Positions 19,843-38,601 of a DNA stretch of 52,244 bases are shown here, piece by piece. The position numbers and the translations under genes were made by a program. Below the pieces are notes generated by a model. That model was not told the DNA's origin and did no database searches. It was given only the letters and a program-made list of their open reading frames with translations. Every line of letters starts with the position of its first letter. Position 1 is the first letter of the stretch. This stretch comes from a virus, in the IMG/VR virus record IMGVR_UViG_3300033143_001356, positions 1 to 52,244 of that record; one strand, given 5' to 3'.

Positions 19843-19865
19843 CTTTATACCTTTCTTTTAACTTA

Positions 19866-20690
19866 TTACCCGGTCGCCAAAGCATAACCCAACCCCGGCC
19901 CTGCCGAACTGCTCTGTGACACATTTACGCTCTGTCCCAATAACATTGCAAGTGCGTTTAATACCTGCGGGTCTGTTATTGCATGTTTCTCTGCAAATAC
20001 TTGCATGTCGGCGGCTATCTCTCTCTGGTACTGGTCTTGTTCTGCACCAGCCAAGCCTAACGTACCGGCCATACCAGCAAGAGCGTCTCTTGTTCGGCCT
20101 AATGGCGCATCCTGAACAGCCATTGACGGGCCTATTGCACCCAACGCTCTTCCTGCTTTAGCCTCTTCAAGTGCTTGGTTCCTGCCTTGTACGTCCCAAG
20201 CTAATCCTGCCCGCTCTGTACCCAGCCAGTCACCTACGTCACCGTAAGCCTCAGCAACTTCACCCGCTCTTGCACTGCCCCAATAACCCGGACCTGCGAA
20301 CTCTTCTCGTATGCCCGGAAGTTCCTCTTGCTGGAACTCTTTCATGCGGGGGTCACGAACTGCACGACCGAAATAAGCCTGTTCGTCTTCAGGAGTAATC
20401 GGCTGTGCGCCCATCTCGCCTCTTAACAGTTTGCCAGACGTTGTTTCAAGGTCTTTCTGCAACGGTCCACCGCCGGCATAGTCACCGAAGTAATTAGCAA
20501 ACTCTGGCAACTGGCCGAAGACATTCTGTTGTGCACCCGTAAGTGGAGCAACCCTTTGTCCGCCATAAACATCCATACCTTTGCCTAAATACGGGCTATA
20601 TGTCTCTACCCCCTTGTCTATTGCACCTGTTTGGGTACGAGTCTTACTTGTGCCCGACGATTTTTGTGATGAGCCGCTAAAGCATCCCAT
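19866..20690 (-). CDS. Putative virion/ejection protein, 274 aa
   Basis: Begins MGCFSGSSQKSSGTSKTRTQ, a Ser/Thr/Gly-rich N-terminus like that of podoviral ejection proteins, followed by helical segments rich in Ala, Gly and Gln. The middle has PQ- and GY-containing turns (FAGPGYWGSARAGEVAEAYG). Start overlaps the stop of the acetyltransferase gene (TAATG). Assignment rests on composition and position. Confidence 0.55.
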   Translation of the reverse strand: MGCFSGSSQKSSGTSKTRTQTGAIDKGVETYSPYLGKGMDVYGGQRVAPLTGAQQNVFGQLPEFANYFGDYAGGGPLQKDLETTSGKLLRGEMGAQPITPEDEQAYFGRAVRDPRMKEFQQEELPGIREEFAGPGYWGSARAGEVAEAYGDVGDWLGTERAGLAWDVQGRNQALEEAKAGRALGAIGPSMAVQDAPLGRTRDALAGMAGTLGLAGAEQDQYQREIAADMQVFAEKHAITDPQVLNALAMLLGQSVNVSQSSSAGPGLGYALATG

Positions 20691-21136
20691 TATTCTATCC
20701 TTTTAATATATGTTGTTTCAAAGTGTTCAAAGCCAGTTTTCTCATATAGTCTGCACACGCTATCGTGCATGTCGCTGGCCAATTTACTTGCTGTCATTAA
20801 AAGACACTTACATCCTTTACTAACAGCCCAATACTGAGCCGCCCTTAGCAATCTAAGGGCACCAATGCCACTTCTCTTTTCAGGAACGATATACCAATAA
20901 TGCTCGTTGGCAAACAGTTCTGTGCCAAGTGGGTTAATGAAAGTCGTTAAACCCATGTACCCCGCTGGCGGATTTCCTAAAACCAACAAATCTTTTCCGT
21001 CTGAATCTATCATGTCTTGTAAGTCTTCCAAGTGTTTGTCTATTAACATCTCAAATCCATATTCATTATGTTCGTTCTGCCACGCTTCGGCAATGTGCCG
21101 TAAATCTTCTGCTTCCCCTGTATATATTTTAACCAT
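20690..21136 (-). CDS. GNAT family N-acetyltransferase
   Basis: 148 residues from ATG at 21136, preceded by GGAG. The GNAT fold is indicated by the central LLVLGNPPAGYMGL strand, the acetyl-CoA loop-like EKRSGIGALRLLRAA and the C-terminal RLYEKTGFEHFETTYIKR. GNAT enzymes acetylate amines on sugars, proteins or small molecules. A longer in-frame start at 21178 would run into the previous gene and lacks support. An acetyltransferase among tail and ejection genes may modify a virion protein or cooperate with the sugar block upstream. Confidence 0.75.
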   Translation of the reverse strand: MVKIYTGEAEDLRHIAEAWQNEHNEYGFEMLIDKHLEDLQDMIDSDGKDLLVLGNPPAGYMGLTTFINPLGTELFANEHYWYIVPEKRSGIGALRLLRAAQYWAVSKGCKCLLMTASKLASDMHDSVCRLYEKTGFEHFETTYIKRIE

Positions 21137-21137
21137 T

Positions 21138-21335
21138 TTACTCCAATGGATTAAACTCCTGATTAGGTGTATTGTCATTATTTTTCACAGCCGGCTCAAG
21201 AAACTGCCTCAATGCAAATATCTCTTTCTGCATACGAGTAATCTCCGTCTCGGTGAATACAGCTATTGTCCTTATAGCATCTTCGCCTTGCAGTCCTTCT
21301 GTCTGAAGCGGAGGTACGTCTTGGTGTATTTCCAT
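21138..21335 (-). CDS. Small helical protein, 65 aa
   Basis: Start overlaps the stop of the 720-aa tail gene (TAATG). A central helix (TEITRMQKEIFALRQFLEPA) could form a coiled coil. Probably a small tail component or chaperone; no family recognised. Confidence 0.6.
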   Translation of the reverse strand: MEIHQDVPPLQTEGLQGEDAIRTIAVFTETEITRMQKEIFALRQFLEPAVKNNDNTPNQEFNPLE

Positions 21336-23497
21336 TACCTGTTACCCTCCGGGTCATAATGAAGTTCCGCCTCTCTTATTTCAAAGTCCGAACCCGCCAC
21401 GCTATCCCAACATATCTGAACCCGTTTAGAACTACGGTTCATATATGTATCATATTTTTCCCAGTCACTCGTCAGGGTTTGGGTTAGGTCAACCCATCCT
21501 GTTTCCGATGTATCGAAACTTGCTGTTCTAAATCTTGTCTTTACGCCACCGTTACCTGAAGTTTTCTCTTTAGCGGTGTACGATATTTTATTCCATCTTG
21601 CATAATTGCCGGGTTCACCCATATCTATCACCGGAGATAAGTGCCTACATGCTATATTGTTCCCATCCTCTGTAGTGTACGTTTCATCTAATTGATACAC
21701 AAATCCTGTGGCGTCACCTAAAAGGATTCGCTCTGCCACCTGCACTTCATTTAATTCGTCGTTATAGGTAGAACCCGATGGGCAGAATAAATTTCCTGTC
21801 GTGTCACCTGCGAATACGGGAGTGTCCGAGGATAGGTCGGCTATTCCTGTTCCGGTAGAGTCGGGACTTCGAGTAGAGTCTCTTGGCGCAACGTAAACAG
21901 TAACAGAATAATCGGTAGTTGCTCCATCTTTCAAAGAACAAACGTCAGTCAACTGATAATAATGAGTTCCATGAGGCATATCACCTGTATCAGAGCCATC
22001 ATCTATTTTAAGAATAAGTCCTGACCATGTAGTTCCGTCCATGTGTCTTGTGCAGTCTATCAACTTAGTGGGGTCATTGGAATAACTAAAACAGAGCAGT
22101 AACCCACCTTCACTTAAATCAACTTCGCCTGCTTTCCAGCTAAAGTCATAATCTGCCGTTGCCGACATAGTTGACCAGTCTATAGCATTAGCGGTATTCT
22201 CACATAAAACGTCACCATACCTTATAGTTACATCGCCAGCAGTTGATGTGTCCACAAAACCAGCGTCGTAAGGACTTAGTGTGTTAAGAGCGTCCTGATA
22301 TGTGTCGCCGGTGGTATATGTCTGCGAACCCGCCAGAGATACAGCGGTTATCCCATCAGCAGAACCAAAAGTATTAGAGAAGTCACGAACCGACCATGCA
22401 CCCGTAGCCATATTCATTATGTATGCTTTAGTGATAAATTCAGAAGCGTTAGGTACGATGAAAATATAAAGATACCTGTTCTCTTCGCCAAATGCCATCC
22501 AGCATCTCGCTTCGTATATAGGGTCAAGGTCGTCCTGTAAGAACTTATGTATCTTATCGCCTATCATCTGTATTGACGTACCACCGTAATAAGCATATAC
22601 ATTATAGTCACTGCCTACAAAGTAATGGGTGTTACCCTTGACAGTAAGTAGATGAGGGGCAAGCAGGCCAAGGTCGGGTATTACGGGGCGTGGCGAAAAG
22701 ACTGTGGTGCCACCAACATAACCTAAGTCCCAGATAGAGTTGTTCTGATATATGATATATAACCCGCCCATTGGTGCAGACCAGATATTCTCTCCTCCAG
22801 TATCTACAAGGTCAACAAAACCTGAACCTGTGCCTGTCCATGTCTGGAGTTTGGAAATTACCGGCCATTGAACTCTCTGTTTATTAGTGGACCATGCCTT
22901 AGACGAAGACGAGTAAGTGAGTGGGCTTATCTCAATAAGTCTGTTCTTGTACGCACCCACCTGTAATGCTCTATGAGTAGAACCGTCGTGATACCCACCG
23001 CCACCTACAACATCATGGAATGTGGTTTCGTATTTACCCGCCCATCTCTGGATATTACTCATGCCACCATCACACACAATCAGATGGTAATACTCAACGC
23101 TCTGGGCGGCATTATCATTCAGGTATATATCGGTGTCATTATGTGCTATCGGAACATAACTGACAGGATGGAATATATCCGAGTTTGCCACTGTGCCGGT
23201 CTTGTCGTCCCACGTCTCTGCTACACGATTATGGAGATATATCTTTTCCGTAGTTACCGCAAGGGTGTGAGCGGTTCTGTCGGACTCTGTGTATGGGATT
23301 ACCGATAGAACAGTATCGCCGGAATTCAAGCCTGTAGTAGTAAGGTCTACCTTAGCAAAACCATAAGGCGTAGTCATTATACCGTGTTCGTATAGGATAT
23401 TCTGTGTGCCGTAAGACGCACCTCGTGGGTCTATCATATTATTAGACACCATAGCGTCAAGACCAAGATCAAGTTTTTGTACTAAAATTGAAGGCAT
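21335..23497 (-). CDS. Tail hub / stabilisation structural protein, 720 aa
   Basis: A beta-rich protein with repeated short strands joined by Gly/Asp/Thr turns, as in beta-propeller hub or stabilisation proteins of podoviral tails. It starts MPSILVQKLDLGLDAMVSNN and contains blade-like repeats such as YLYIFIVPNASEFITKAYIM and GFVYQLDETYTTEDG. Coupled to the gene before it by TAATG. It lies between the sugar block and the ejection proteins, where the tail proteins would be expected. Precise family not recognised. Confidence 0.6.
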   Translation of the reverse strand: MPSILVQKLDLGLDAMVSNNMIDPRGASYGTQNILYEHGIMTTPYGFAKVDLTTTGLNSGDTVLSVIPYTESDRTAHTLAVTTEKIYLHNRVAETWDDKTGTVANSDIFHPVSYVPIAHNDTDIYLNDNAAQSVEYYHLIVCDGGMSNIQRWAGKYETTFHDVVGGGGYHDGSTHRALQVGAYKNRLIEISPLTYSSSSKAWSTNKQRVQWPVISKLQTWTGTGSGFVDLVDTGGENIWSAPMGGLYIIYQNNSIWDLGYVGGTTVFSPRPVIPDLGLLAPHLLTVKGNTHYFVGSDYNVYAYYGGTSIQMIGDKIHKFLQDDLDPIYEARCWMAFGEENRYLYIFIVPNASEFITKAYIMNMATGAWSVRDFSNTFGSADGITAVSLAGSQTYTTGDTYQDALNTLSPYDAGFVDTSTAGDVTIRYGDVLCENTANAIDWSTMSATADYDFSWKAGEVDLSEGGLLLCFSYSNDPTKLIDCTRHMDGTTWSGLILKIDDGSDTGDMPHGTHYYQLTDVCSLKDGATTDYSVTVYVAPRDSTRSPDSTGTGIADLSSDTPVFAGDTTGNLFCPSGSTYNDELNEVQVAERILLGDATGFVYQLDETYTTEDGNNIACRHLSPVIDMGEPGNYARWNKISYTAKEKTSGNGGVKTRFRTASFDTSETGWVDLTQTLTSDWEKYDTYMNRSSKRVQICWDSVAGSDFEIREAELHYDPEGNR

Positions 23498-24495
23498 TAC
23501 TGGGTATTATCTCCGAAAGGAAGCCAATAAACTTTACCAGAAGTCCAAGCCGTATTATCACTACTGACACACCATGTATCTCCGGCCTTAACAGGAAAAG
23601 AAAGGCCAGTCCTTTTGCCGCTTCCGCCCTCTATGCTCACCCTTGCCGTAGCTACTGGGGTCTTGCCAACCAATTTGAGGGCAGTAGCCGTCTTTAATGC
23701 GTAAGTTGTTACCATTCCATCTGTCACAGCAGTCCAAGTTACGTCGTGCCCTAAAGTGCCATCTGATGTTCTCTCTGACCAGTCGCCGAACATATTAACT
23801 GATACAATAGATGTACTGTCGCCCACTACACCATCAAAGGTAAGTGTAGCTTCGCCTGTAATTACCGTATCACCAACAACTGTAGTGCCGTCTATAGATA
23901 TATCAGCATGGAAAGCGGCGTCGCCGCCCACAGTAAAGGTACTGTCAACAGAACAGTCACCAACAATCTTTGCATTGCCTCCAAGAGCAAACGCACCGTC
24001 AACGGTAAGGTCACCACCGATGGCCATATTTGCGTCAAAACTAACATCGCCAACCACACTTAATGTGGCATCAAACTGATGGCCGCCCTGCCAAGTAACA
24101 TCTCGCCCGCCCCACTGTAAGTCAGGGTGCATTTTAAGAACTGTAAAGTCGCCACAAGTGCTTGTCCCTGCGGCTGAAGTATTACAGAACAGGACACCCC
24201 AATTACTTGTGTCGCTATATGCCCATATCAACCCTCTGGCACGATAAGTACCATCCGCAACAACAGTAACAGTACAGTCGTCGGTATAGTCCACGCCCAG
24301 AACAGCAGAACCACCCGGAGTATGTATGCCCCCAACAGTAGCGTCAGCGAAGGTGGAATGTTCTTGGTCAAGTCTTTTTCGCACAGCCTTGGCCACATGT
24401 TGTTGCTCTCTATAATCTAATCCGTGTGGCTGGTCAACGTCAAGGGCTTCTAATGAATCCCAAGCTGCTCCATCGCCACTTGCGTGTACGCCCAT
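23497..24495 (-). CDS. Beta-solenoid tail/fibre-like protein, 332 aa
   Basis: ATG at 24495 with AAGGAG one codon after the cytidylyltransferase stop. Residues about 140-235 are a run of short repeats of the type GGDLTVDGAFALGGNAKIVG, each about 12 residues, typical of trimeric beta-solenoid shafts. The N-terminus (MGVHASGDGAAWDSLEALD) and the compact C-terminal domain (SGKVYWLPFGDNTQ) fit a short fibre or tail knob. Directly joined to the sugar genes. Confidence 0.6.
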   Translation of the reverse strand: MGVHASGDGAAWDSLEALDVDQPHGLDYREQQHVAKAVRKRLDQEHSTFADATVGGIHTPGGSAVLGVDYTDDCTVTVVADGTYRARGLIWAYSDTSNWGVLFCNTSAAGTSTCGDFTVLKMHPDLQWGGRDVTWQGGHQFDATLSVVGDVSFDANMAIGGDLTVDGAFALGGNAKIVGDCSVDSTFTVGGDAAFHADISIDGTTVVGDTVITGEATLTFDGVVGDSTSIVSVNMFGDWSERTSDGTLGHDVTWTAVTDGMVTTYALKTATALKLVGKTPVATARVSIEGGSGKRTGLSFPVKAGDTWCVSSDNTAWTSGKVYWLPFGDNTQ

Positions 24496-24496
24496 A

Positions 24497-25054
24497 TTAT
24501 AACTCCTTAAATGCTTTCAAATATTCTTCTAAAGTATTAACACTAAACACCTCTCTTTCTTCTTCCATATCAACTCGATGAATCCTTAAATCTTCACCGT
24601 TATACAAATGTTCTTTTCCTCTCATCTTTTCTAACGCCTGAACAGTAACTACTTCTACGTCTATTCCTTCCTTTGTCGAAGAAGGCAGGGAATCGTGATG
24701 GTTATATGTGTACTCGGCACCGGACTCCAGATGTTCCTTTATTACATGGTTTATAATCGTCGATGTAACAAACGGACAATCTGCTGTAACCCTCACGATA
24801 TGGTCAGCATCACATATCTTAGCTGCGTTCCTTAGTTCGCCGGTCAAGTCTCTTTCGCCCGGCCATACAATAGCGGTTCCACACACAAACCTTGTCAAAT
24901 CATCGTCCGGCGTACAGACTATCGCTTGGTCAACGTCACTTTCTTCCATAGTACAAAGGACATATCCGACCATTGTAGTGCTGCCCATTGGAAGAACAGA
25001 CTTAGCCGGTAATCGCCTACTGCCCAATCTTGCATTTACTACTCCAAGTATCAC
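24497..25054 (-). CDS. SpsF/NeuA-type cytidylyltransferase (CMP-nonulosonate synthetase candidate)
   Basis: Belongs by motif to the acylneuraminate/KDO cytidylyltransferase family. The nucleotide loop ARLGSRRLPAKS follows the N-terminal strand, the metal site appears in VRVTADCPF, and EGIDVEVVT and a C-terminal VNTLEEYL match SpsF-type proteins. Expected reaction: CTP plus a nonulosonic acid gives the CMP-sugar. At 185 residues from the GTG at 25054 it is shorter than the usual 230-240 and lacks the REHVT-type segment. I chose the GTG because it overlaps the upstream stop (GTGA) and follows AAAGGGG; a longer ATG start at 25087 is possible. Confidence 0.8.
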   Translation of the reverse strand: MILGVVNARLGSRRLPAKSVLPMGSTTMVGYVLCTMEESDVDQAIVCTPDDDLTRFVCGTAIVWPGERDLTGELRNAAKICDADHIVRVTADCPFVTSTIINHVIKEHLESGAEYTYNHHDSLPSSTKEGIDVEVVTVQALEKMRGKEHLYNGEDLRIHRVDMEEEREVFSVNTLEEYLKAFKEL

Positions 25055-26370
25055 ATTGACCCCTTTGGAAAGAACCTTGCCGCACAATGCGGGCAGTATG
25101 TTTGTTTGCTCATAGCTTCCAATATCTGGACATTTCCTTTTGCTGCAATACAGATATTTTTCAGATATTCCTGGTTGACCATTGAGAACTTTCTCTTGCA
25201 GATACCACAGAAACCTTCAGTCAAGATTTTGGTTTGGTCTTTAACTACATTCAATGTGTCGTAATCCAAATGCGCCCTCGGCCAGCAATACTTGAACTTG
25301 CCCTTGACTCCGTTTATTTCCTTAGCAGCACGTTTGAAAGCATTGCCGTCCATTTTACCGTATCGGCCCGTCTCTAATTCCTTGATGGCTTTCTTGTCGG
25401 CGTTGGACTTATCTGCTTTTGTTATCGCAGTGGCCAGTTCGTTCAAGTCTTCAAACATAGGAGATACACGACTCAATGCACTGCCCGATTTAATCCACCA
25501 TCCACAAGAATACTTCTCATTAACATCGCAATACTGAAACGCCGGTTTATTCATGCAGTGCATTTCCATGCCCATCGTAGAACCGGAATGAACCAGAATA
25601 TCTGTGTTCACTAAGATGTCCGTTGCAGTCGATTCCGTATCAAGCGGTATTTTCATCTGGGCAAGAGCTTGTTTGTAAGGTTCAACCAAAACGCCTGGAT
25701 GAAGCGTAACTAAGATATTACATCCCAACCTTTGTTTGAGTCCGCCGATCATAGCTAAATACTTATTCCTGCCCTCAACTTCTTTTTGGACATTCACCAT
25801 TTCGTCAATACTCAGATCAGGGGCGGAATCACAGAACCCCCACGGCGAGGATATTGTCAGGATTTTCTTTTTCGGGTCAAAGCCCCATTTCTTACAGAAG
25901 TCTTTCTTAGACGTGAACTTGCTCCTGAATCCTTTCTGTTTGTAGATGTCTAACCCAAAAGCGCCAACGGCTATTGCCGGGAAACCTGATTTTCGTCTTT
26001 CAAGTATTTGAGCCTCGTCATCGCCCCAGACAAGTTCCTTGTCAATGTCATATCGCCACCGACCGAGAATATTCTGTTTGGTAGCTTCGTCGCCTTCCTT
26101 GAAATCCTTCCAGTCGCAGCTCGCTTCGGTGTGACGAGAAACGATACCTATACCAAAGTCTCTACATGTTTCCGCTAAATCCCTTGAGTAAGGGTTCCTT
26201 ATAGGTGGGAATACCACTACGTTCGGCTTGTAACTAAGAATAGCGTCACGACCTTGCCTTAGGCACGGCACAACTTTGACCTTGTTACCTAACAGTTCCA
26301 ATTCTTCTTTGATTAGGTTGTCAACCACTTCGTCCCTGTGGGGACTTGCTGATAAAATCAGTACCTTCAT
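25051..26370 (-). CDS. Surface-carbohydrate biosynthesis protein, GT-B-like, with zinc ribbon
   Basis: A 439-residue protein with a Rossmann-like N-terminus (MKVLILSASPHRDEVVDNL, then PNVVVFPPIRNP). A second half (ILTISSPWGFCD, ILVTLHPG, DILVHSGSTMGMEMHCMNKP) matches GT-B-type surface carbohydrate proteins. The SGSTMGMEM loop is the usual nucleotide-sugar region. The C-terminus adds a zinc ribbon (CGIC near 388-391, CPHC near 426-429). It could be the glycosyltransferase of the block or fill the UDP-sugar hydrolase (PseG) step. The start follows the previous stop directly (TAA-ATG). Confidence 0.65.
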   Translation of the reverse strand: MKVLILSASPHRDEVVDNLIKEELELLGNKVKVVPCLRQGRDAILSYKPNVVVFPPIRNPYSRDLAETCRDFGIGIVSRHTEASCDWKDFKEGDEATKQNILGRWRYDIDKELVWGDDEAQILERRKSGFPAIAVGAFGLDIYKQKGFRSKFTSKKDFCKKWGFDPKKKILTISSPWGFCDSAPDLSIDEMVNVQKEVEGRNKYLAMIGGLKQRLGCNILVTLHPGVLVEPYKQALAQMKIPLDTESTATDILVNTDILVHSGSTMGMEMHCMNKPAFQYCDVNEKYSCGWWIKSGSALSRVSPMFEDLNELATAITKADKSNADKKAIKELETGRYGKMDGNAFKRAAKEINGVKGKFKYCWPRAHLDYDTLNVVKDQTKILTEGFCGICKRKFSMVNQEYLKNICIAAKGNVQILEAMSKQTYCPHCAARFFPKGSM

Positions 26371-27168
26371 TTATTCTTCCTTTCTTAAAATTAGTCTCAC
26401 TTCAGTTCTTCCGCCAAAACCACGTTTGAATTTACTTATGTTAGCCAGCTTATCATCTCCGTATACCTGCTCGCCCATCTCGAATCGCTTACAGCCTATT
26501 CTCTTAGCTTTGAGTATCGCTTCCCACATAAGAGCATGACTGTCTACCGTAGAACAACCTGAAGCATAATAGGCGGCGTCTTTATTGTAGTACACTATCA
26601 ATCCTGCGTCAGTTACGACATTAGACGGTAACGGGTTATGAGGATGTAGAAAATGAGTCTGTGTCAAACAGAATGCCTGTCTCTGCCATATCATACGGTT
26701 TTGAATATCCCACGTCTCTTGTGGTCGGGTAACACCTCTAATCGACTCATGTAAACTCTGGTAAGCACCTGTATCGAACATTGTATTTACCATGATGTCT
26801 TTATTCACAAGCGACTTGTAACTCTTACGAAGTCCTCTGCGTAGCTTTTCAGTCGGTAAGGTCAAGTCGATAACCTGCGTATAGTACGGCGTAGCCTTAT
26901 GGCCTCTGGCCGATAGGAACCTGCTGATAGGCGAAAGACCGTCCATAAGAAAGTCCATGTAATATATGTCCTGAGACATACTCCATAGTCGCATTACATA
27001 CGCCATCGGATCAGGGCCGTGGTAAACCATAGGTCGCCAGTAGCCTGTTATCTTGCCGTCTTTTAGTGCCGCATGGCCATGAGGTTCATACGGTCCGCTC
27101 ATCGCTTGGTTGTACTCCCTGTCCAGCGGCGAATAAAGCGGCGTCAATTGAGAAATAGAGACTGTCAT
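26371..27168 (-). CDS. FemAB-like GNAT acyltransferase
   Basis: A 265-residue protein whose C-terminal half (AAYYASGCSTVDSHALMWEA, then ILKAKRIGCKRFEMGE and ISKFKRGFGG) is the FemAB/BioF2-like GNAT pattern. Such enzymes transfer amino-acyl or acyl groups to peptidoglycan, glycans or sugars. Start 27168 has AAGGAAAATTTT upstream and overlaps the previous gene by 83 bases in another frame. In this block it may N-acylate the sugar or attach an amino acid to it (inference). Confidence 0.7.
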   Translation of the reverse strand: MTVSISQLTPLYSPLDREYNQAMSGPYEPHGHAALKDGKITGYWRPMVYHGPDPMAYVMRLWSMSQDIYYMDFLMDGLSPISRFLSARGHKATPYYTQVIDLTLPTEKLRRGLRKSYKSLVNKDIMVNTMFDTGAYQSLHESIRGVTRPQETWDIQNRMIWQRQAFCLTQTHFLHPHNPLPSNVVTDAGLIVYYNKDAAYYASGCSTVDSHALMWEAILKAKRIGCKRFEMGEQVYGDDKLANISKFKRGFGGRTEVRLILRKEE

Positions 27169-27640
27169 AAAATTTTCCTTGCCATAACTTCCTGTTCGGT
27201 AATACGGCTGTTGAACCCTTATACTTATCTGCTATCTTTAACCAAAACTCTACTGCTTCGTTACAGTAATAGCATTCGCCGAAAACTGTCTTGAGGCCGA
27301 GATTGTCAAATGCTTCGTGCAACAGCATGTCAACAGCCTCTATACCATAACCCTTTCCCTGTAATGTTGGGTTGATTATAAGGCTAATCTCTCCCAACTT
27401 GTTCTCCCACTGGATATTAGTGATACCGCCCATACCCATAAGAATATCAATGTTATTCGTACAACAATAGTCATACTCTTTAATCAACCAATACCTGTGC
27501 TTATTCGTATCAAGATTTTTTAGGAACCTTGATTGGTCTACTTCCGTCAGGGGGTGTGGCGTTCTTAACGCTTGCAGGTTTTGGTTTCTCCACAGTCTTA
27601 TCGTCTGTAGGTCTGTCAGGTTCAGTGCTTCCAGCTTCAT
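27086..27640 (-). CDS. PseH/RimJ-like N-acetyltransferase
   Basis: 184 residues from ATG at 27640 (GGAG eight bases upstream). The pattern LTDLQTIRLWRNQNLQALR at the start, a GMGGITNIQWENKLGEISL core and the acetyl-CoA loop QGKGYG with a following helix (EAVDMLLHEAF) match GNAT enzymes of the PseH group, which acetylate the C4 amine of UDP-4-amino sugars in pseudaminic acid synthesis. The 5' end overlaps the aminotransferase by 131 bases. Which amine it acetylates cannot be read from sequence. Confidence 0.75.
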   Translation of the reverse strand: MKLEALNLTDLQTIRLWRNQNLQALRTPHPLTEVDQSRFLKNLDTNKHRYWLIKEYDYCCTNNIDILMGMGGITNIQWENKLGEISLIINPTLQGKGYGIEAVDMLLHEAFDNLGLKTVFGECYYCNEAVEFWLKIADKYKGSTAVLPNRKLWQGKFYDSLYFSIDAALFAAGQGVQPSDERTV

Positions 27641-28889
27641 TTTTATTCTCCGGCAATCTAAAGGTTTCTTCGGGTACATCGCCTTTCAAGGCGTCCATCG
27701 GATTATCCCAATACTTTCGTACTATTTTCATAGCCGCTCTCATTGCGCCGATAGTTTCATCTATCACTCCCAACGTGTGAGAATATGATATAAACTGTGC
27801 ATAACCGAGAAGTACGCCACGATACAGACATTCCTGCCAGAACAAGGCTTTATGCTCCGGTGTGGGGAATATGAAGTAAGTTCTGGGTGCAAGGCCCTTC
27901 AGGTACACTTCGTCGCTCAATCCCATGCCATCAGTAATCGTCTTAAACAAACCCTTGAGACGGTCGCCCATCTTCCATATCTGGTCAATTACATTATGGG
28001 TTTGCATATACTCAATGGTTGCTATAGCAGCTGTGATTGAAGCTAACTCAGCACCAAAGGTAGACGATACAAAGCAGTCGCCCTGTAATACGTCCATCAT
28101 ATCCTTTTTGCCGCAGACACAACTGATAGGCATACCGTTTGCCATCGCCTTGCCTAAACACGTCAAGTCAGGTGTTACGCCGTAGTAGGCTTGTGCGCTA
28201 AACTTCTTAGTGCGGAAACCCGTTACAACTTCATCAAAGATAAGTACCGTTCCATTCTCTGAACATATCCGGCGAATGTCCTCAAGGAAGTTCTTGTCAG
28301 GTTCATCAAGGATATACGGTTCCATGATAACAGCAGCGATCTTGCACTCGTTTTTTGTACCCATCTTGGCTGTGAAGTCGTTAATGTCGTTGTAAGTAAA
28401 CTTCTCTATCGACTTTGTAAGGGCATCGGGTATACCGTCTTTCTTGTCGTTGACTATTGCGAACCAGTCATGCCAGCCGTGATAACCGCAACACAGAACT
28501 TTTGTTCTCTTGGTGTACGCCCTTGCGATCTTAACCGCTGCACTTGTCGCTTCGGAACCAGTCTTTACGAACCTCACCTTTTCGGCACTTGGGATAATAT
28601 CGCATATCTTTATCGCAAGTTCCGTTTCAAGTGGTGACGGTAGCGAGAAACACAAGCCCTTTGGCAGTTGGTTGCTTATCGCTCTGTTCACATATTCATG
28701 GGCATGACCTAAGATTATCGGGCCTAAACCTAATGGATAGTCTATGTACTTCTTATCACCTGACCATACATAAGCACCTTCGGCTCTGTCGATATACTTA
28801 GGGTAAACCCTGTTGACATGCTTACTCGGCATTTTACTTAACGTCTGCACTCCGTCGGGAATGTACTTTAATGTTTTGTTCCAATCCAT
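27510..28889 (-). CDS. Class III PLP aminotransferase (GSA-aminomutase-like)
   Basis: 459 residues. PLP-fold landmarks: GSEAT (111-115), GYHGWHDW (135-142), FDEVVTGFR (218-226) and the presumed Schiff-base Lys in CLGKAMANGMP (247), then STFGAE. Length to about residue 412 matches the family. A hydrophilic C-terminal tail (ENKNEAGSTEPDRPTDD and KPKPASVKN) is extra and is encoded in the region overlapping the acetyltransferase. Class III enzymes of this type occur in nonulosonate clusters together with AKR and SpsF genes. Here it most likely aminates a keto-sugar, replacing a DegT-type PseC. Confidence 0.85.
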   Translation of the reverse strand: MDWNKTLKYIPDGVQTLSKMPSKHVNRVYPKYIDRAEGAYVWSGDKKYIDYPLGLGPIILGHAHEYVNRAISNQLPKGLCFSLPSPLETELAIKICDIIPSAEKVRFVKTGSEATSAAVKIARAYTKRTKVLCCGYHGWHDWFAIVNDKKDGIPDALTKSIEKFTYNDINDFTAKMGTKNECKIAAVIMEPYILDEPDKNFLEDIRRICSENGTVLIFDEVVTGFRTKKFSAQAYYGVTPDLTCLGKAMANGMPISCVCGKKDMMDVLQGDCFVSSTFGAELASITAAIATIEYMQTHNVIDQIWKMGDRLKGLFKTITDGMGLSDEVYLKGLAPRTYFIFPTPEHKALFWQECLYRGVLLGYAQFISYSHTLGVIDETIGAMRAAMKIVRKYWDNPMDALKGDVPEETFRLPENKNEAGSTEPDRPTDDKTVEKPKPASVKNATPPDGSRPIKVPKKS

Positions 28890-28900
28890 GTTCTTCCTTT

Positions 28901-29500
28901 CTAAAATTTCCTTGTATCAACTTCTTCGTTATGTTCAAACTTTTCCATCTTTACGAGATGGGCTACGTTATCTCTTAACTGGTCAACTGAATCAACGCCG
29001 ATTATTACCTTATCTATCCGTGGGTTCATCAGGACGAAATCTATACATTCTCTTGGACTGAAGTATTTCAGGGCTTTACCTTTACAGAAGATGGAACGGG
29101 CGATGATTCTTGGTGGTTCTGGCTCGATGTTAAAATGCAACAATTTTTTGTTCATAATAGAGTAGGGCAATTCCACATAGCGTGCCGACGTTGGGATTAT
29201 TTCTCCAGCCTCTTTTTGTATCGACAACCCTTCGTGGGTGACTTTTCGGTAATCTCCAAATTTATGAGCAAGTAATATGTCTTGGCCGTGGACAAAGAAA
29301 CCCGGCTTACTGCTTTTGTATATTCTATTGAATTGCCTTAATCCAATATGCCCTGTCCCATAAGCCGTGGCAACATCCAGCCATTCGATACCAACATCTT
29401 TCATGTATTCCATGATGAGTTGCTGTTGGGTTTCGTCTACACAATGGCCGTTATATTCACGGCCCCAGTTCGCTGTTCCTACTACTAATCGTTCAAGCAT
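28901..29500 (-). CDS. Compact aldo/keto reductase, 199 aa
   Basis: N-terminus LVVGTANWGREYNG followed by WLDVATAYGTG gives the catalytic Asp (42) and Tyr (47) of the aldo/keto reductase family. His 71 in FFVHGQD fits the HS/HN strand, and IIARSIFCKGKAL plus IIGVDSVDQLRDN match the C-terminal strands. At 199 residues it is much shorter than the usual 270-320, with loops trimmed and not one clean truncation. AKRs of this type sit beside SpsF and aminotransferases in sugar clusters. Probably reduces a keto-sugar with NADPH. Ribosome site GGAG at 29500. Confidence 0.75.
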   Translation of the reverse strand: MLERLVVGTANWGREYNGHCVDETQQQLIMEYMKDVGIEWLDVATAYGTGHIGLRQFNRIYKSSKPGFFVHGQDILLAHKFGDYRKVTHEGLSIQKEAGEIIPTSARYVELPYSIMNKKLLHFNIEPEPPRIIARSIFCKGKALKYFSPRECIDFVLMNPRIDKVIIGVDSVDQLRDNVAHLVKMEKFEHNEEVDTRKF

Positions 29501-30405
29501 TGCTCCACCTTTCCAATAAATACTTCTTCATCCATTCGTTTAGCCTTATCCGAAGAGTAAGGTTTATCCCACGGATAATGGGCAGTACAATCCAAAGTAA
29601 CCATAGACACTTTCTCGCCGTCTTCCGAAACTAATGATTCGTGTATCTTCTCGCCCGGCCTTACACCGATAACCTCAAACTCACAGTCGGGAATAATGGC
29701 CCTCGCTACATCGGTTATCTTCATAGCCGGTGCGCGAGGGACCAATATCCAGCCACCCTTAGCCGTATTCAAACCCAACATTACAAGGTTTACCGCCTCT
29801 TCAAGCGTTATCCAGAACCTTGTCATGTCAGGGGAAGTAATTGGAACCTTTTTAATTCCCTGCTTTCTTAACTTGTAAAAGAGCGGTATTACAGAGCCAC
29901 GCGAACCTATAACATTTCCATACCGAGTAACTACAAATTCGGTTTTGTTATAAGCGTTTGCAGCGAGAAACAATTTCTCTGCGCACAGCTTCGTAGCCCC
30001 ATAAAGATTGACAGGATTAACCGCCTTGTCAGTCGAAACAAACACGCATTTTTCGACCCCATTGGCGTTACACGCACTAATAACATTCATGCTTCCCTGT
30101 ACATTAGTCTTTATTGCTTCTTCGGGGTTATACTCTAAAGCAGGAACTTGCTTTAACGCGGCGGCGTGAACAACATAATCCACACCAGACATAACCTGCA
30201 TTAACCTTTGTTCGTCCCTAACGTCGCCTAAAAAGTATCTCGGTTCGGGAAAGTCCTTTGCCATTTCTGACTGTTTGAACTCGTCCCTACTGAAAACGAT
30301 AACCTTTTCAGGCTTACTTTCGAGTATTCTCTTTATTAACTTTTTACCAAGTGACCCGGTACCGCCAGTCACTAACACTGTTTTTCCTAACAGGCTCGCA
30401 TCCAT
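29485..30405 (-). CDS. pseB: PseB-type UDP-GlcNAc 4,6-dehydratase (inverting)
   Basis: 306-residue extended SDR. NAD-binding TGGTGSLG (13-20), HAAALKQVP (80-88) and the catalytic block STDKAVNPVNLYGATK (124-139), with Asp, Lys, Tyr and Lys in the arrangement known from PseB/FlaA1. RYGNVIGSRGSVIP follows, as in inverting dehydratases. The reaction is UDP-GlcNAc to a UDP-4-keto-6-deoxy-AltNAc, the first step to pseudaminic acid. Ribosome site AAGGGAA. It overlaps NeuB by 19 and the reductase by 16 bases. Full length for the family. Confidence 0.88.
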   Translation of the reverse strand: MDASLLGKTVLVTGGTGSLGKKLIKRILESKPEKVIVFSRDEFKQSEMAKDFPEPRYFLGDVRDEQRLMQVMSGVDYVVHAAALKQVPALEYNPEEAIKTNVQGSMNVISACNANGVEKCVFVSTDKAVNPVNLYGATKLCAEKLFLAANAYNKTEFVVTRYGNVIGSRGSVIPLFYKLRKQGIKKVPITSPDMTRFWITLEEAVNLVMLGLNTAKGGWILVPRAPAMKITDVARAIIPDCEFEVIGVRPGEKIHESLVSEDGEKVSMVTLDCTAHYPWDKPYSSDKAKRMDEEVFIGKVEQCLND

Positions 30406-31205
30406 TTCCCTTCAATTTCCTTTCTTCTAAACCTTTTCTTACCGCCGTATTGGACCTTACCAATACTCTTCTCGGCGGCTCTTACTATCTCTGTCATCGC
30501 TGCAAACTGGACCGGCGTAAGAGCGAAACTCTCGTCCAGTCCACCGTTCACTTTGATGTGCTTCTCTAATACTGTTGCGCCTAACGTCATAGCGACGACC
30601 GGAACTACATAACCGGATGAATGGTCGCTCATGCCGACCTTACAGTTGAACTTTCTCAACTTCGCCATAGTTCTTAAATTCATCTTGGCAGGGTCAGCGG
30701 GATACTCACTGACACACCACAACAGAGTTATGTCCTTTGTGTACTTCTTGGCTGTCGTTATAGCCGTTTCGATCTCTTTGTATTCTGCCATACCTACCGA
30801 CATCAGTATCGGTTTCTTGGTCTTGGCTACAGTTTCAATTAACTCCAGCCACGGTAATTCAAAGGACGAAATCTTATATCGCTCTATTCCCATCTCTTCT
30901 GCGGTCTTTACCATGTCAGGATGGTACACCGTAGCGATGAATCCCATCTCTAACTGTTGACACAGTTTCTTTAGTTTAGGCACAAACTCTAAGGGCATTG
31001 CGGCTTTTTCATACAGTTCATACAATGTGTGTCCTGCCCACGGACCATCCTTGATTATCTTACCGCTTTCCAACGCCATCTGGTCAGGAGTGAACATCTG
31101 GACCTTGATAGTGTCTGCGCCTGCTTCCTGAGCGGCAAATACCAAATCCAGAGCCGTCTGGTAATCCTGATTATGACTCGCACCTATTTCAGCTATTATT
31201 TCCAT
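30387..31205 (-). CDS. NeuB/PseI-type nonulosonate synthase lacking the SAF domain
   Basis: 272 residues forming the NeuB TIM barrel: AEIGASHNQ (5-13), IKVQMFTPDQM (33-43), GPWAGHTLYELYEKA (54-68), CVSEYP (164-169), SDHSSGY (193-199), EKHI (214-217), SFALTP (226-231). Expected reaction: phosphoenolpyruvate plus a six-carbon amino sugar gives a nine-carbon nonulosonic acid. The W-x-G-TLYELYE loop is more PseI-like. NeuB proteins usually have about 340-350 residues because of a C-terminal antifreeze-like SAF domain; this one ends right after the barrel. Ribosome site AGGAG at 31205. Confidence 0.88.
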   Translation of the reverse strand: MEIIAEIGASHNQDYQTALDLVFAAQEAGADTIKVQMFTPDQMALESGKIIKDGPWAGHTLYELYEKAAMPLEFVPKLKKLCQQLEMGFIATVYHPDMVKTAEEMGIERYKISSFELPWLELIETVAKTKKPILMSVGMAEYKEIETAITTAKKYTKDITLLWCVSEYPADPAKMNLRTMAKLRKFNCKVGMSDHSSGYVVPVVAMTLGATVLEKHIKVNGGLDESFALTPVQFAAMTEIVRAAEKSIGKVQYGGKKRFRRKEIEGKWMRAC

Positions 31206-31518
31206 CTGCTCCTATCCTTACTGTTCCCGCAACCGTACACCCTCGCGGTATTTCTTTAAGGTCAACATTTTTCCAGTCATTATCAATCCATTTTTTTATA
31301 ACCGCCCATTCGTGGTCATGGCAATTATATACTTTGCATTCTCGCGGCCTCTGTTCACCCAAGGCGCATCCGCCATGCACCCAAAATCCATCCTTGTCTG
31401 ACCACAGATGTTTATTGTCTTCGGTTATGTACGAACCAAACTTTCTTGCGCAAGGCGAGCAACACCCCTTCAATGTCTGTATCGGACAATAACCGCTACA
31501 TTGGAATTCTTTATTCAT
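31189..31518 (-). CDS. Cys-rich protein, 109 aa, heading the sugar block
   Basis: From ATG at 31518, which overlaps the adaptor stop (ATGAATAA), with AGGGAAC upstream. It has a cysteine pattern CSGYCPIQTLKGCCSPCARK, then GGCALGEQRPREC and CHDHEW, resembling iron/zinc cluster proteins (YkgJ-like) or a partial radical-SAM-type cluster. It overlaps NeuB by 17 bases. Function in the sugar block is unknown; metal binding is inferred. Confidence 0.6.
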   Translation of the reverse strand: MNKEFQCSGYCPIQTLKGCCSPCARKFGSYITEDNKHLWSDKDGFWVHGGCALGEQRPRECKVYNCHDHEWAVIKKWIDNDWKNVDLKEIPRGCTVAGTVRIGADGNNS

Positions 31519-32191
31519 ACCAGTTCCCTGACCATTCGTGCATAGTATCATTTTGGCTTTTGTACTCTTCAAACCATTCAAAGAACTTTGCTCGCCATAT
31601 CGCTGCGTCAGTAGCTTTTTCTGCACCTATCGCAACGAAAGCCTGCCACACACCGTAGTCTATAAGTCCTTCGTCAGCGTCGTTCAGGCTTGAACTAAGG
31701 GCATCCGTTATATCAATCGGGTAAACACCTATATCGAATCTAAAGTCCTTGTCGCAATATTCCGTCAGACACAGCGGCATGACCTCAGCGTAATTCCCCC
31801 GACGAGTCCACGCGTTAGGTTGAATATGCGGTATATCGGTATGGGTCGGGTCGGGATACTGATTATCAAATTCGTCAATCGGAAGATAAGTCAACTTCCG
31901 CGTCAAATTACCGTCAAGATAAAATATATCGAATACATGAGCAGTCCTGTTGGATGTAGTTACATCGGATAATCCTGACGTGATCTCGGCCAAAGGCCAC
32001 CTTAACTGAACTGTCGTATCCAGAGACGTTGTGTTCTTGAACGTAAGTTCATGTAAGCCGGGAACTTTTTCGGCTATTATCCTCTGGGCTTCGTTTTGCC
32101 ATCGCGCACAACGCGCATCCGTAATAAGAACCGCATCATTAGTGCGTCCACACAACGCTTGTATTTCATCTGTTATTGCTGAACTTATCAT
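31511..32191 (-). CDS. Head-tail adaptor (connector) protein
   Basis: 226 residues from ATG at 32191 (GGGG upstream); an in-frame TTG start at 32203 is possible. The pattern IQALCGRTNDAVLITDARCAR, WQNEAQRIIAEKV and a later PIDEFDNQYPD beta-segment fits phage connector proteins of the adaptor type, which sit under the portal. It is the last head gene before the sugar block. Confidence 0.7.
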   Translation of the reverse strand: MISSAITDEIQALCGRTNDAVLITDARCARWQNEAQRIIAEKVPGLHELTFKNTTSLDTTVQLRWPLAEITSGLSDVTTSNRTAHVFDIFYLDGNLTRKLTYLPIDEFDNQYPDPTHTDIPHIQPNAWTRRGNYAEVMPLCLTEYCDKDFRFDIGVYPIDITDALSSSLNDADEGLIDYGVWQAFVAIGAEKATDAAIWRAKFFEWFEEYKSQNDTMHEWSGNWYE

Positions 32192-32240
32192 ATTTTGCCC
32201 CAATCACTGACAGCCCCCCGCGAAGGAGACTGCCAGCTTG

Positions 32241-32577: not shown

Positions 32578-33228
32578 TTAGGCCGAAACCGTAGTTGCTA
32601 TTCCACAAATACCTTCAAACGATGCGTCGCCAACACCGAGAACAAGATGGCTTGTATCTACCACAGGTTGTATATGGTTCCATGCCGTCGCAGTATTAGT
32701 CAGATCGAAGTCCAATGTAGTGATGTCTACATGGGGACAAACGCCGCCACACCAGAACCAACTCCATTGATACGCAAGGGTAGTTCCATCAACATCTACG
32801 CCGGGATTACACCCTATGGCAATCATGCCCGTAGATGTCGCATCCATACAAGCACTTGTATTAGACACGATATACGGACAATCAGAAGCCTCGGAGTAAT
32901 GGCCAATGTCAATCCATGCTGAAGAATCAAAGTGACCACAAATCGGCCTTGCATCTGAACTTTGGTCTGCGGCACTGGATAACGGGAACGAACCGGACAT
33001 TTCATTAAAGGCCAGATAAATCATTGTGTATGGCCCTTGAACAGATGACGCATCCGCCCCAGTCTGGAACGCCTGAATCTTTGTCATTGGTGGATACTTC
33101 GGTGCGGTTACGCACGAATGTCCCGCAGAAGTAGAATCAAAGCCACCCGAAGGTATGCCAAGATTGGGGTTAGGATAACCCGGCCATCTGTCTGCTAAAA
33201 TAATTTTTCTTAGGCTTAAATTTGCCAT
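32578..33228 (-). CDS. Putative head decoration protein, paralogue 1 (216 aa)
   Basis: ATG at 33228 with AAAGGAG. Shares with the next gene the N-terminal pattern WPGxPNxNLGIPxGGFD, then TKIQ, YTMIY and GVCP at matching positions, so the two are tandem paralogues. Cysteine-rich for a phage protein (for example WCGGVCP). Location right after the major capsid gene fits a decoration or fibrous head protein. Confidence 0.6.
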   Translation of the reverse strand: MANLSLRKIILADRWPGYPNPNLGIPSGGFDSTSAGHSCVTAPKYPPMTKIQAFQTGADASSVQGPYTMIYLAFNEMSGSFPLSSAADQSSDARPICGHFDSSAWIDIGHYSEASDCPYIVSNTSACMDATSTGMIAIGCNPGVDVDGTTLAYQWSWFWCGGVCPHVDITTLDFDLTNTATAWNHIQPVVDTSHLVLGVGDASFEGICGIATTVSA

Positions 33229-33243
33229 AACAATACTCCTTTC

Positions 33244-33918
33244 TTACGCGTCAGTTGCAAATGAGTAACCGCAAACGTTATTGGAAAGATCGGCTGCGCC
33301 ATCAAGCTCTAAAACACTTGTGTCTGCTTGTGGATAAATAGGTTCGCCAGCAGCAACATTTCCGCCAGTTGACATATCAACGCCTGCATGAGCAACACCA
33401 CTAAGCATAGTACAGTCCATAGGACACACACCGTCTATCCAGAAGAAACCGTACCCGCCATGATTGTCGCCATCAGTAGTCACATCTCTGTAAGAGAGTG
33501 TACCGCAGGCAATACCCATTTGGCCGGTAACAGTAGCGTCGTGAATACCCGCACCTAATGTCGCTAAATTAGACACAGTGAAGGCATTGCTTGTACCATC
33601 CGCCGAAAGACATGTTGAACTACACATGTGTCCAAAGACAGCCATTCCCAGCAAAGACAAATCTGCTTTTTCCACACCAATAGGTGTGCCATTGTTTACA
33701 GACTGACAATAGTACCTGCTATACATCATTGTGTAATAACCTGTTACGCCGGAGAAATCCTGATAGACTTGGATTTTAGTCCCGACCGGAAACTGCTCCG
33801 TAGAGGAGTCAGTCCACTTTGTTGCGTCAAAGCCGCCCTTGGGAATTCCGAGGTTATGATTCGGAGTGCCGGGCCACTTATCTTGTAATACTAAGTCTCT
33901 GGTACTTACTGCTACCAT
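33244..33918 (-). CDS. Putative head decoration protein, paralogue 2 (224 aa)
   Basis: ATG at 33918 with AAAGGA. N-terminus DKWPGTPNHNLGIPKGGFD matches its neighbour. Several Cys pairs (CSSTC, GVCPMDC). Beta-rich and Gly-rich. Duplication after the capsid gene suggests two forms of one surface protein. Specific family not recognised. Confidence 0.6.
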   Translation of the reverse strand: MVAVSTRDLVLQDKWPGTPNHNLGIPKGGFDATKWTDSSTEQFPVGTKIQVYQDFSGVTGYYTMMYSRYYCQSVNNGTPIGVEKADLSLLGMAVFGHMCSSTCLSADGTSNAFTVSNLATLGAGIHDATVTGQMGIACGTLSYRDVTTDGDNHGGYGFFWIDGVCPMDCTMLSGVAHAGVDMSTGGNVAAGEPIYPQADTSVLELDGAADLSNNVCGYSFATDA

Positions 33919-33953: not shown

Positions 33954-34985
33954 TTACGAAACATTATTTAACCACAAACTCCCGTTGGGTTTCCAGCACA
34001 TGAAGTTACCGGAGATCAGGATTCTTGACAGCCACATATCGTAGCCGTTAGAGTTCTTGCCCTGCCATTCAAAGTCTGTCATCTTGAAGTTTCTGGCAGT
34101 ATGGAACCTGAGTTCCCAATGTTCGAGGTTGAGGATAAATACCCAGTTTCTCATCGTTGAAGTAGTCTGGAGATAAGGAACGCTCACGATTGTATGTTTG
34201 TCGAGTTCCATCTTGTTAAAGCCTTGTTTCTGCTTGTCGCCAGTTGGATGATACTGAACCTTACCTTCCATCTCTGCTCTTAGTTTATTGAACAGAGTAG
34301 GACACATACAAATATAAAGGTCTCTCGGAGTCTTCATGTGATGAGATACGTCGGTTTCCGTAATCCATTTACGAAGGTTTGATATTGTAATATTATATGC
34401 GGTCGCCTGTGCGCTTGAGGTCGTATTGACGTTCAAGCCAGCCGGGTCCGCACCCTGCCACCAGTCATTTGTTCCGCCCGACCAACTTCTTGTCAGTGTA
34501 CCATAGGTAACATCATGGTCAAGTGCAGATACTAACGACTGGAACTGTGTTGCGCCGTCTGCTACGCCTGTCTCAGAGCCTACGTTGAATATTTTCTTGT
34601 TCAGCCACAAGCGAGTAGCATTATGGCCCTTAGAGACCAACTGGTCTGCAAGGTCAAGCAACTGCTCTTCTGTACCTGCAAGGATATTCTGTGTATACTC
34701 TTCAAGGCCATACCTGAGAGGCAACTGGGCATACTTCCAGAGGAACCTTGGTTTCTCAAGCGTGTCCTTTGCTTCGTCAGTCAGCGCGGTGTTAGGCGTG
34801 TATTCCTGCATCAAATCGTCGATTTCATCGGTATCTACCAGACGCTCTACATACTTACCACCTGAGTAGGTAATCTGGTTCCGACTCTGTAACGCTTCGA
34901 CTACAGGCGTCGCCATATATACTTCGTCCACCTTAGAACGTAGAAACAGTTCTCTGGTGGCGTTTGATAAATCGTTCAAAGCCAT
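33954..34985 (-). CDS. Major capsid protein
   Basis: 343 residues, located directly after scaffold and portal in transcription order, as in P22-like and related phages. Visible pattern: SKVDEVYMATPVVEALQSRN N-terminal helix region, PLRYGLEEYTQNIL, LWLNKKIFNVGSETGVADG, then KMELDKHTIVSVPYL and DMWLSRILISGNFMCWKP, typical of an HK97-fold coat protein. Ribosome site AAGGAC. Assignment rests on position and fold-type pattern. Confidence 0.8.
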   Translation of the reverse strand: MALNDLSNATRELFLRSKVDEVYMATPVVEALQSRNQITYSGGKYVERLVDTDEIDDLMQEYTPNTALTDEAKDTLEKPRFLWKYAQLPLRYGLEEYTQNILAGTEEQLLDLADQLVSKGHNATRLWLNKKIFNVGSETGVADGATQFQSLVSALDHDVTYGTLTRSWSGGTNDWWQGADPAGLNVNTTSSAQATAYNITISNLRKWITETDVSHHMKTPRDLYICMCPTLFNKLRAEMEGKVQYHPTGDKQKQGFNKMELDKHTIVSVPYLQTTSTMRNWVFILNLEHWELRFHTARNFKMTDFEWQGKNSNGYDMWLSRILISGNFMCWKPNGSLWLNNVS

Positions 34986-35787: not shown

Positions 35788-36036
35788 TTAGCCCTTTGGC
35801 TGCTTCGATTGCACTTCTTCCAGTTTTATTTTAAGCGCATGTATATTACGCTTTACTCTCGCACTTGCAGGTCCGCCCTGAGTATTGTGGAACGCTGCCT
35901 CTAATTTTACTATTTCATCCCGAATAGCTTTCGTCGGGTCAATTTTTTTCGGTAATGGTTTGTTTGAAACCGTCTTTGCTTGTTTCTGTACTTTTTTCTT
36001 TGGTGATTTCCGTTTTAATTTCTGTACCTTTTTCAT
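35788..36036 (-). CDS. Lys-rich small protein overlapping the portal gene end, 82 aa
   Basis: ATG at 36036 with AAAGGA. The first 30 residues are nearly all Lys, Pro, Ser, Val and Gln; the second half is a charged helix (DEIVKLEAAFHNTQGG). It overlaps the portal 3' end by 98 bases in another frame. It could be a DNA-binding head protein or scaffold accessory. The frame overlap is long, so reality is likely but not certain. Confidence 0.6.
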   Translation of the reverse strand: MKKVQKLKRKSPKKKVQKQAKTVSNKPLPKKIDPTKAIRDEIVKLEAAFHNTQGGPASARVKRNIHALKIKLEEVQSKQPKG

Positions 36037-38014: not shown

Positions 38015-38601
38015 ATAAATAAATTCTCGTAAACCATTTTAATTAGTTCAAAAAACTCCGACTGCGACAAATCAGATTTGGCTCGGTTGCAGTATTTACA
38101 ACAAGATACAACATTTTCAGCAATATATCCTTTTTTGCTATCTACTCTATCAACTCCGTTGTAAACATACTCTCCTTTGCGTCGGGGATGTCTCAGGATA
38201 GCAAACGGAGGCCGACCGCAATAATAACAATCACCTTTTGTTAATTTACGAAACTCAATTTTGTTTATCGCAAAAATCAACCCACGGTCTTTTGCTGTAT
38301 GCTGGTATTGGCTATATAAATGGTTAAACACAGATTCGCCAACTGCCAATTCTTTATTGTTCGGCCTGCCCCGCAAACAACCGCAAGACCTTTTGTGTCC
38401 GTTTCGTAGTTGGCTTGTTTTTGCCGTTGTTATTTGCCCACATTCACATCGGCACAACCATAACCGCTGGTTATCCTTGCCTTCTGTTCGCTCAATAACA
38501 ACCAATTTGCCAAACTTTCTGGCAAACATTGTTTCGGGTGTGCCATAAACCCCCGCATCCTCTGTATGTTTGAGCAGTGTCATAGATTTTTCGTTTGTCA
38601 T
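38011..38601 (-). CDS. HNH endonuclease
   Basis: 196 residues with an N-terminal zinc segment (CRCECGQITTAKTS, then CGCLRG) and a C-terminal HNH-type core (CYYCGRPPF, NGVDRVDSKKGYIAENVVSC, CKYCNRAKSDLS). Free-standing HNH genes in phages act as homing endonucleases or assist packaging. It is inserted between a small unknown gene and the portal, with 4-base ATGA overlaps on both sides, so it is expressed as part of the late operon. Confidence 0.8.
   Translation of the reverse strand: MTNEKSMTLLKHTEDAGVYGTPETMFARKFGKLVVIERTEGKDNQRLWLCRCECGQITTAKTSQLRNGHKRSCGCLRGRPNNKELAVGESVFNHLYSQYQHTAKDRGLIFAINKIEFRKLTKGDCYYCGRPPFAILRHPRRKGEYVYNGVDRVDSKKGYIAENVVSCCKYCNRAKSDLSQSEFFELIKMVYENLFI

Follow-up and report, generated by a model that had tools for sequence, protein, structure and literature searches.

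A conserved cassette of putative nonulosonate synthesis genes within the virion gene block of a phage lineage

Introduction

Nonulosonic acids occur as sugars on the surface of bacteria and animals, and their usual producers are bacteria. In flagellin glycosylation, cytidine monophosphate (CMP)-activated pseudaminic acid is produced by the PseB-PseC-PseH-PseG-PseI-PseF pathway. The virions of mycobacteriophages are reportedly glycosylated, as Freeman et al. are said to have described in 2023, and we know of no nonulosonate synthesis module involved there. Two phage genes acting on a nonulosonate, epaA and epaB, were described in Acinetobacter prophages, in which they convert pseudaminic into 8-epipseudaminic acid in the host capsule (PMC12053666). 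In bacteria, Legionella pneumophila Sg6 has a cluster (PMC3694923) that brings together CapD, DegT, PseG, NeuB, a cytidylyltransferase and a homologue of glutamate-1-semialdehyde aminomutase, and Vibrio clusters encode an enzyme in which SpsF is fused to an aldo/keto reductase (AKR) (PMC7371886). Here, we analyzed the 52,244-base virus record IMGVR_UViG_3300033143_001356, the whole of which is called the window, and we describe a cassette of eight minus-strand genes (24497-31205). We propose, with modest confidence, that this cassette is a phage-owned module making a CMP-activated nonulosonate-type sugar, derived from phosphoenolpyruvate (PEP) and probably nine-carbon, and transferring it to an acceptor, likeliest a virion (tail) protein.

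The cassette resembles the CMP-pseudaminic acid pathway in that it contains PseB and a PseI-like NeuB, with a GNAT and a cytidylyltransferase in the places of PseH and PseF. It differs by its class III aminotransferase, its SpsF-type activator, a NeuB devoid of SAF domain and the lack of PseC and PseG, and it is phage-borne within a virion block. In the Legionella Sg6 and Vibrio O-antigen clusters too, NeuB, CapD/PseB and a cytidylyltransferase accompany a class III aminotransferase, and an AKR accompanies SpsF. However, they are chromosomal and also hold PseC (as well as PseG in Legionella), and the functions of their extra enzymes are not established. As for epaA and epaB, they epimerise the pseudaminic acid of the host without synthesis from UDP-N-acetylglucosamine (UDP-GlcNAc). 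What the cassette would share with the mycobacteriophage systems is the action of phage glycosyltransferases on virion proteins. Among open-licence papers, we found no description of such a cassette.

Results

The cassette encodes eight enzymes with conserved catalytic residues

The eight genes overlap at their ends and lie between an upstream gene encoding an SU10-type adaptor (31511-32203, minus strand; PF24175, 1.4e-6) and a downstream tail gene (23497-24495). The initial annotation had described a leftward overlapping block placed between head-tail adaptor and tail genes, and this arrangement was confirmed, as were all eight gene families that it had named once the eight proteins were submitted to profile searches. 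The span that it had given, 24497-31518, holds at its left end; on the right it runs into a Cys-rich open reading frame (31189-31626) and the adaptor gene, the cassette proper ending at 31205.

The NeuB/PseI-like protein (30387-31205, 272 aa), a predicted PEP-condensing synthase, matches Pfam family PF03102 with 219 bits for a cut-off of 22 and the PseI profile TIGR03586 with 257 bits, under the cut-off of 340. The latter match stops at position 267 of 327, and the protein ends ahead of the SAF domain. Its closest solved structure is the pseudaminic acid synthase 8h2c (216 bits), followed by SpsE (163) and SiaC (128-130), and the solved relative 6ncs is of similar length (290 residues). The residues that we take to be the metal and PEP ligands are invariant in 11 phages, save for Glu6, which is an Asp in three of them. 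A SAF-like tail suggested by eye in the NeuB of contigs L127 and L128 (328 aa) was discarded, as Pfam sees none.

The PseB-like protein (29485-30405), a predicted UDP-GlcNAc 4,6-dehydratase of the inverting type, reaches 392 bits with TIGR03589, slightly below the cut-off of 408, and 312 bits with its solved relative 2gn4; Thr125-Asp126-Lys127, Tyr135 and Lys139 are invariant across the cassette phages. It is followed by a short AKR-like protein (28901-29500; PF00248, 2e-7), in which Tyr47 and Lys62 are kept in nine of nine sequences and Asp42 in eight; its structure model, with a predicted local distance difference test score (pLDDT) of 52, was left unused. The class III, glutamate-1-semialdehyde aminomutase-like aminotransferase, hereafter AT3 (27510-28889), matches PF00202 (167 bits, cut-off 30.5) and NF004856 (327 bits). 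D219 and the pyridoxal phosphate lysine K247 are invariant, the latter in 12 phages, and the solved relatives of AT3 include a C-6' aminotransferase, so that there are precedents for sugars as substrates of class III aminotransferases.

Two acyltransferase-like proteins come next. The GNAT acetyltransferase (27086-27679; PF13302, 1.4e-13), the true start of which is probably 27640 as judged by alignment with its relatives, is weakly PseH-like (30 bits with the PseH model, 3e-7, cut-off 93). The FemAB-like GNAT (26371-27168; TIGR04421, 1.2e-13), predicted to transfer an amino-acyl or acyl group, is conserved in 12 phages. The following gene (25051-26370) encodes a GT-B-fold protein of the BFO_1060 or surface-carbohydrate kind (NF046086, 1.5e-23; TIGR04396, 1e-16), for which a fold search with a weak predicted model (pLDDT 58) retrieves GT-B proteins. 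It ends with a CxxC...CxxC pair, the four Cys of which are invariant in 11 phages together with His224 and His261, and it is probably a glycosyltransferase. We also considered that it could be a disguised PseG; this was not supported, since PseG comes only 50th in the same fold search, after 2-epimerases, TagF and MurG, and since the His of the N-terminal SPHRD motif is not conserved (Val in L003). The last gene (24497-25087) encodes an SpsF-type cytidylyltransferase (PF02348, 1.7e-13), a candidate for CMP activation, whose solved relative 6oew is named 'Cytidylyltransferase' (1e-14) and in which the RL..K, D103 and D143/E145 motifs are invariant across the cassette phages. Altogether, the catalytic residues are nearly invariant in the alignment of the cassette phages. 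None of the cassette proteins displays a membrane segment, the top 19-residue hydropathy being 1.81.

The cassette occupies a fixed slot and diverges with the virion genes

Relatives were searched for in IMG/VR contigs with NeuB, AT3, the GT-B and FemAB proteins and the head protein. The complete set is found with the same gene order and in the same slot in nine distinct viral genomes, the window included, the AKR gene being absent in two. Besides the window, genes from NeuB to SpsF are complete in 3300005663_001973, 3300035698_001676, 3300022539_000112, 3300009788_000154, 3300027901_000011, 3300025698_000545, 3300035698_003457 and 3300037245_000544. In three additional records, 3300031227_002467, 3300009034_000194 and 3300009034_000216, the cassette is cut by contig ends, and the window has an essentially identical counterpart in 3300033141_001169. 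Found in no fewer than 12 distinct viral contigs, this arrangement is not a chance association. The order holds although identity to the window drops to 32% for the adaptor, 37% for NeuB and 32% for SpsF.

Synonymous sites are saturated between these phages and nonsynonymous divergence (dN) is 0.11-0.57 in the seven cassette genes other than the AKR gene, all of which are by this measure under strong purifying selection. Pairwise identities are correlated between NeuB and the adaptor (r 0.95), AT3 and the head protein (0.89), and AT3 and the portal (0.92), and only at 0.14 between the AKR and the adaptor, these r values being descriptive because the pairs are mutually non-independent. Divergence of the cassette, AKR excepted, is thus seen to track that of the virion genes in these alignments. 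In a quick tree, which raised a long-branch warning, the phage AT3s form a single clade with a Shimodaira-Hasegawa-like approximate likelihood ratio (SH-aLRT) of 99.

Among contigs whose head protein is at least 58% identical to that of the window, every one that can be followed past the adaptor carries the cassette; several head-protein relatives end before that point and are uninformative on its presence. In a more distant contig from metagenome 3300033141 (L133), which encodes an SU10 adaptor (3e-21), the head protein shares 24% identity with that of the window, and the tail gene starts one base past the adaptor, with no cassette gene in the 15.9 kb of the contig. Over its N-terminal part, this tail gene matches that of the cassette phages (36% over 58 aa, 5e-6), and the gene after it is PHROG 3287 in both. 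The cassette therefore occupies a defined gap, of which L133 represents the empty slot. By this comparison of contigs, the gene set is no stray host acquisition and has been retained by a group of uncultured tailed phages while they diverged deeply.

The gene set departs from the pseudaminic acid pathway

Neither the window nor six related records gave a match to PseC (DegT, PF01041) or to PseG (TIGR03590); contig L096, used as a control for PseC, was positive. On the SpsF-type enzyme, the PseF model reaches 17.7 bits for a cut-off of 205.7. Since PseC, PseG and PseF are lacking and the PseH match is limited to 30 bits, the cassette does not encode the CMP-pseudaminic acid pathway, from which it differs, judging by its gene content, by that pathway's defining features. 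Neither is it the legionaminic acid set (LegB, LegC, LegG/LegI), which was searched for and not found: DegT has no match and the LegB model gives 63.6 bits on the PseB-like protein (cut-off 475). The pseudaminic-like pathway of the initial annotation is therefore retained as an intact set for nonulosonate-type synthesis, activation and transfer, under purifying selection and inside the virion block, and abandoned as the canonical pathway; PseF is replaced by the SpsF-type enzyme and the assignment to PseH is weak.

Among 68 cellular loci containing relatives of AT3, NeuB is found nearby in 63 and SpsF in 63, together with a transketolase in 60 and a KdsC-like phosphatase in 45. Relatives of PseB and PseC are present in only three of the 68 (PseC with AT3 in L007, L072 and L010). 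These neighborhoods place AT3 in a class III family associated with nonulosonates. Given the precedents for sugar substrates in this class, AT3 may replace PseC or perform another step.

Variable and added genes

The AKR of the window and that of 3300035698_003457 share 70% identity, the NeuB and adaptor proteins of these two phages being only 43% and 39% identical. With phages whose NeuB is closer to that of the window (55-75% identity), AKR identity is just 31-34%. By this 70% match to a distant member, the AKR gene has been exchanged, and the possibility that this shorter gene is decayed was ruled out by the same match. It is the sole cassette gene to be exchanged or lost. Some relatives have added genes, namely an N-acetyl-sugar amidotransferase of the WbuX/PseA kind (275 bits, cut-off 203), a formyltransferase (two matches, one marginally below the cut-off) and a PIG-L deacetylase. 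These additions would fit a variation of the N-substituents of a diamino-nonulosonate by N-amidination, N-formylation and N-deacetylation.

Nonulosonate genes in other viral contigs

A near-complete legionaminic-like set lies directly beside the large terminase gene in L096 (IMGVR_UViG_3300038608_000027, a 59 kb record; 9219-20573), with LegB (455 bits), NeuB, PtmE-like, DegT, PseF-like and WbuX amidotransferase genes. What it has in common with the cassette phages is nonulosonate synthesis genes, here beside a packaging gene; however, this is another phage with an unrelated gene order, LegB/DegT/PseF-like enzymes and a NeuB of SAF-containing length. The marine virus AG-345-L05 (Kyanoviridae; L097, MH319754.1, 5361-8819) carries a short-chain dehydrogenase/reductase, SpsF-like, DegT-like and short NeuB (272 aa) genes within a large glycan gene cluster, the SpsF-like and DegT-like calls being made by reading the sequence. 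These two sets indicate that phages outside the cassette lineage also have nonulosonate genes, and what is new here is the lineage-wide fixed slot and the AT3 route.

A contig titled Euryarchaeota archaeon SM23-78 (L006, LSSJ01000028.1) contains glycosyltransferase, Gfo/Idh, SpsF, PseB, AT3 and RmlB-like genes. Its AT3 is 50% identical to the phage AT3 and falls within the phage clade, and the cluster is followed by adaptor-like and structural-looking genes, the adaptor-like protein having no family match. It was set aside as an archaeal cluster, being probably a mis-binned phage contig.

Genomic context of the cassette

The window bears a 114-nt terminal direct repeat (1-114 and 52131-52244), so the genome is probably complete. 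The Cys-rich small protein encoded between the adaptor and NeuB genes (31189-31626, minus strand) had no family match in profile searches. Most relatives encode it, with two copies in L106 (3578-4193) and a changed position, between FemAB and GT-B, in L104 (9570-9989). Further genes encode a P22/SU10-type portal (35939-38014), the major head protein (33954-34985) and a terminase-like protein (13764-15446); a search of 50,697 records of isolated phages gave no match for either the portal or the head protein. A small head-region protein occurs as tandem paralogues (32578-33918), g32578 and g33244, which are mutually 34% identical, and their copy number differs among relatives (L090 3242-5351; L103 769-3469). 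The tail block encodes another weak GNAT-like protein (20690-21178; PF00583, under the cut-off), and a 1373-aa protein without Pfam match is encoded at 9504-13625. The early-type genes, which lie at 1-9000 and 38598-52244 and thus outside the virion block, encode a DnaC-like helicase loader, RusA, YbcO, a D12 methyltransferase, Lar-like restriction alleviation and HNH endonucleases. No tRNA and no Rfam match were found in the window, and promoters and terminators in the block are close to chance expectation (30 found for 27 expected, and 16 for 12.5).

Discussion

The gene content suggests the following route. PseB would convert UDP-GlcNAc into a 4-keto-6-deoxy UDP-sugar, on which AT3, together with the AKR in most members, would install an amine that the GNAT would acylate. 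No PseG-type hydrolase is recognisable, and removal of UDP would have to be performed by the host, by the GT-B protein or by some other phage protein. NeuB would then condense the freed sugar with PEP, SpsF would add CMP, the GT-B protein would transfer the activated sugar to its acceptor, and the FemAB-like enzyme would add an amino-acid or acyl group. Transfer could take place in the cytoplasm, as for flagellin, onto a virion (tail) protein that has just been synthesized. We consider such a protein the likeliest acceptor because the cassette proteins have no membrane segment, no flippase or ligase gene is found alongside those of the cassette and a fast-evolving tail gene adjoins it. The product of this fibre-like gene (23497-24495, minus strand), itself a candidate acceptor, shows 29-57% identity among relatives and contains 19% Ser+Thr, and its homologue in L106 matches the tail-fibre PHROG 1396 at 2.6e-11. 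Gene position and this same lack of membrane segments are our grounds for inferring that the genes act late and that the sugar is used on the particle.

Several points weigh against this proposal. As PseC and PseG are missing from seven records of the lineage, the product is not predictable from known pathways. The model of the GT-B protein is of low confidence, and adjacency to a tail gene is no proof that a tail protein is the acceptor.

Concerning the target, the main rival is that the sugar remodels the surface glycan of the infected cell, leading to superinfection exclusion or receptor change, with the GT-B protein adding it to a lipid-linked or lipopolysaccharide precursor of the host on the cytoplasmic side. 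Phage enzymes altering nonulosonates of the host capsule are known (epaA/epaB, PMC12053666), and the families matched by the GT-B protein are named for surface carbohydrate. Yet the cassette encodes no membrane protein, flippase, polymerase or ligase, it lies inside the virion block and not in an early or lysogenic region, and it is universal in the lineage whereas conversion genes are usually sporadic; we hold this explanation to be unlikely. Concerning the route, the main rival borrows PseC and PseG from the host: the phage would divert an intermediate of the host pseudaminic pathway, AT3, AKR and SpsF forming a tailoring module that leads to a modified variant. The absence of both enzymes from the phages would be explained, and AT3 relatives do stand beside PseC in some cellular clusters (L007, L072, L010), just as DegT and an aminomutase homologue are found together in Legionella Sg6 (PMC3694923). 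Because such enzymes co-occur in some clusters, AT3 need not replace PseC. On the other hand, PseC was not detected in 65 of the 68 cellular clusters with AT3, which can therefore be the sole aminotransferase of this kind, and a PseB and a NeuB of its own would be of little gain to a phage whose hosts already make pseudaminic acid. This diversion of a host pathway thus seems to us rather unlikely.

The product could also differ in size or kind from a nonulosonate while still being a CMP-activated keto-sugar acid. Indeed, SAF-less NeuB-family synthases accompany the AT3/SpsF pair in Bacteroidota-type clusters in which a transketolase and a KdsC-like phosphatase replace PseB. Against this, PseB (392 bits) and the PseI-like NeuB (257 bits, and 216 to the solved PseI) indicate a six-carbon amino-sugar condensed with PEP, giving nine carbons, and we find another kind of acid improbable. 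Finally, the cassette could stem from contamination or from a host operon captured recently, given the cellular descent of its enzymes and the metagenomic origin of the record, but a single slot in at least 12 distinct viral contigs already contradicts such an origin, and the phage AT3 clade (SH-aLRT 99), the saturated synonymous divergence with conserved protein and the 114-nt terminal repeat argue in the same direction. Recurrence, co-divergence with virion genes and clade structure lead us to reject it as extremely improbable.

The proposal of a phage-owned module decorating virions can be extended to a wider one, which we regard as possible but doubtful: the whole phage lineage would make its own nonulosonate by an undescribed route, combining PseB with a class III aminotransferase, a synthase without SAF domain and an SpsF-type activator and dispensing with PseC and PseG, as an obligate decoration of tail proteins, with swappable tailoring genes giving phage-specific variants. 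A near-complete set for synthesis and transfer, fixed in the virion block together with an uncharacterised aminotransferase route and exchangeable tailoring genes, would imply that some phages coat their particles with sugars resembling sialic acid. The orthologous series of 12 phages also gives direct access to a family of class III aminotransferases left unexplained in many bacterial nonulosonate clusters.

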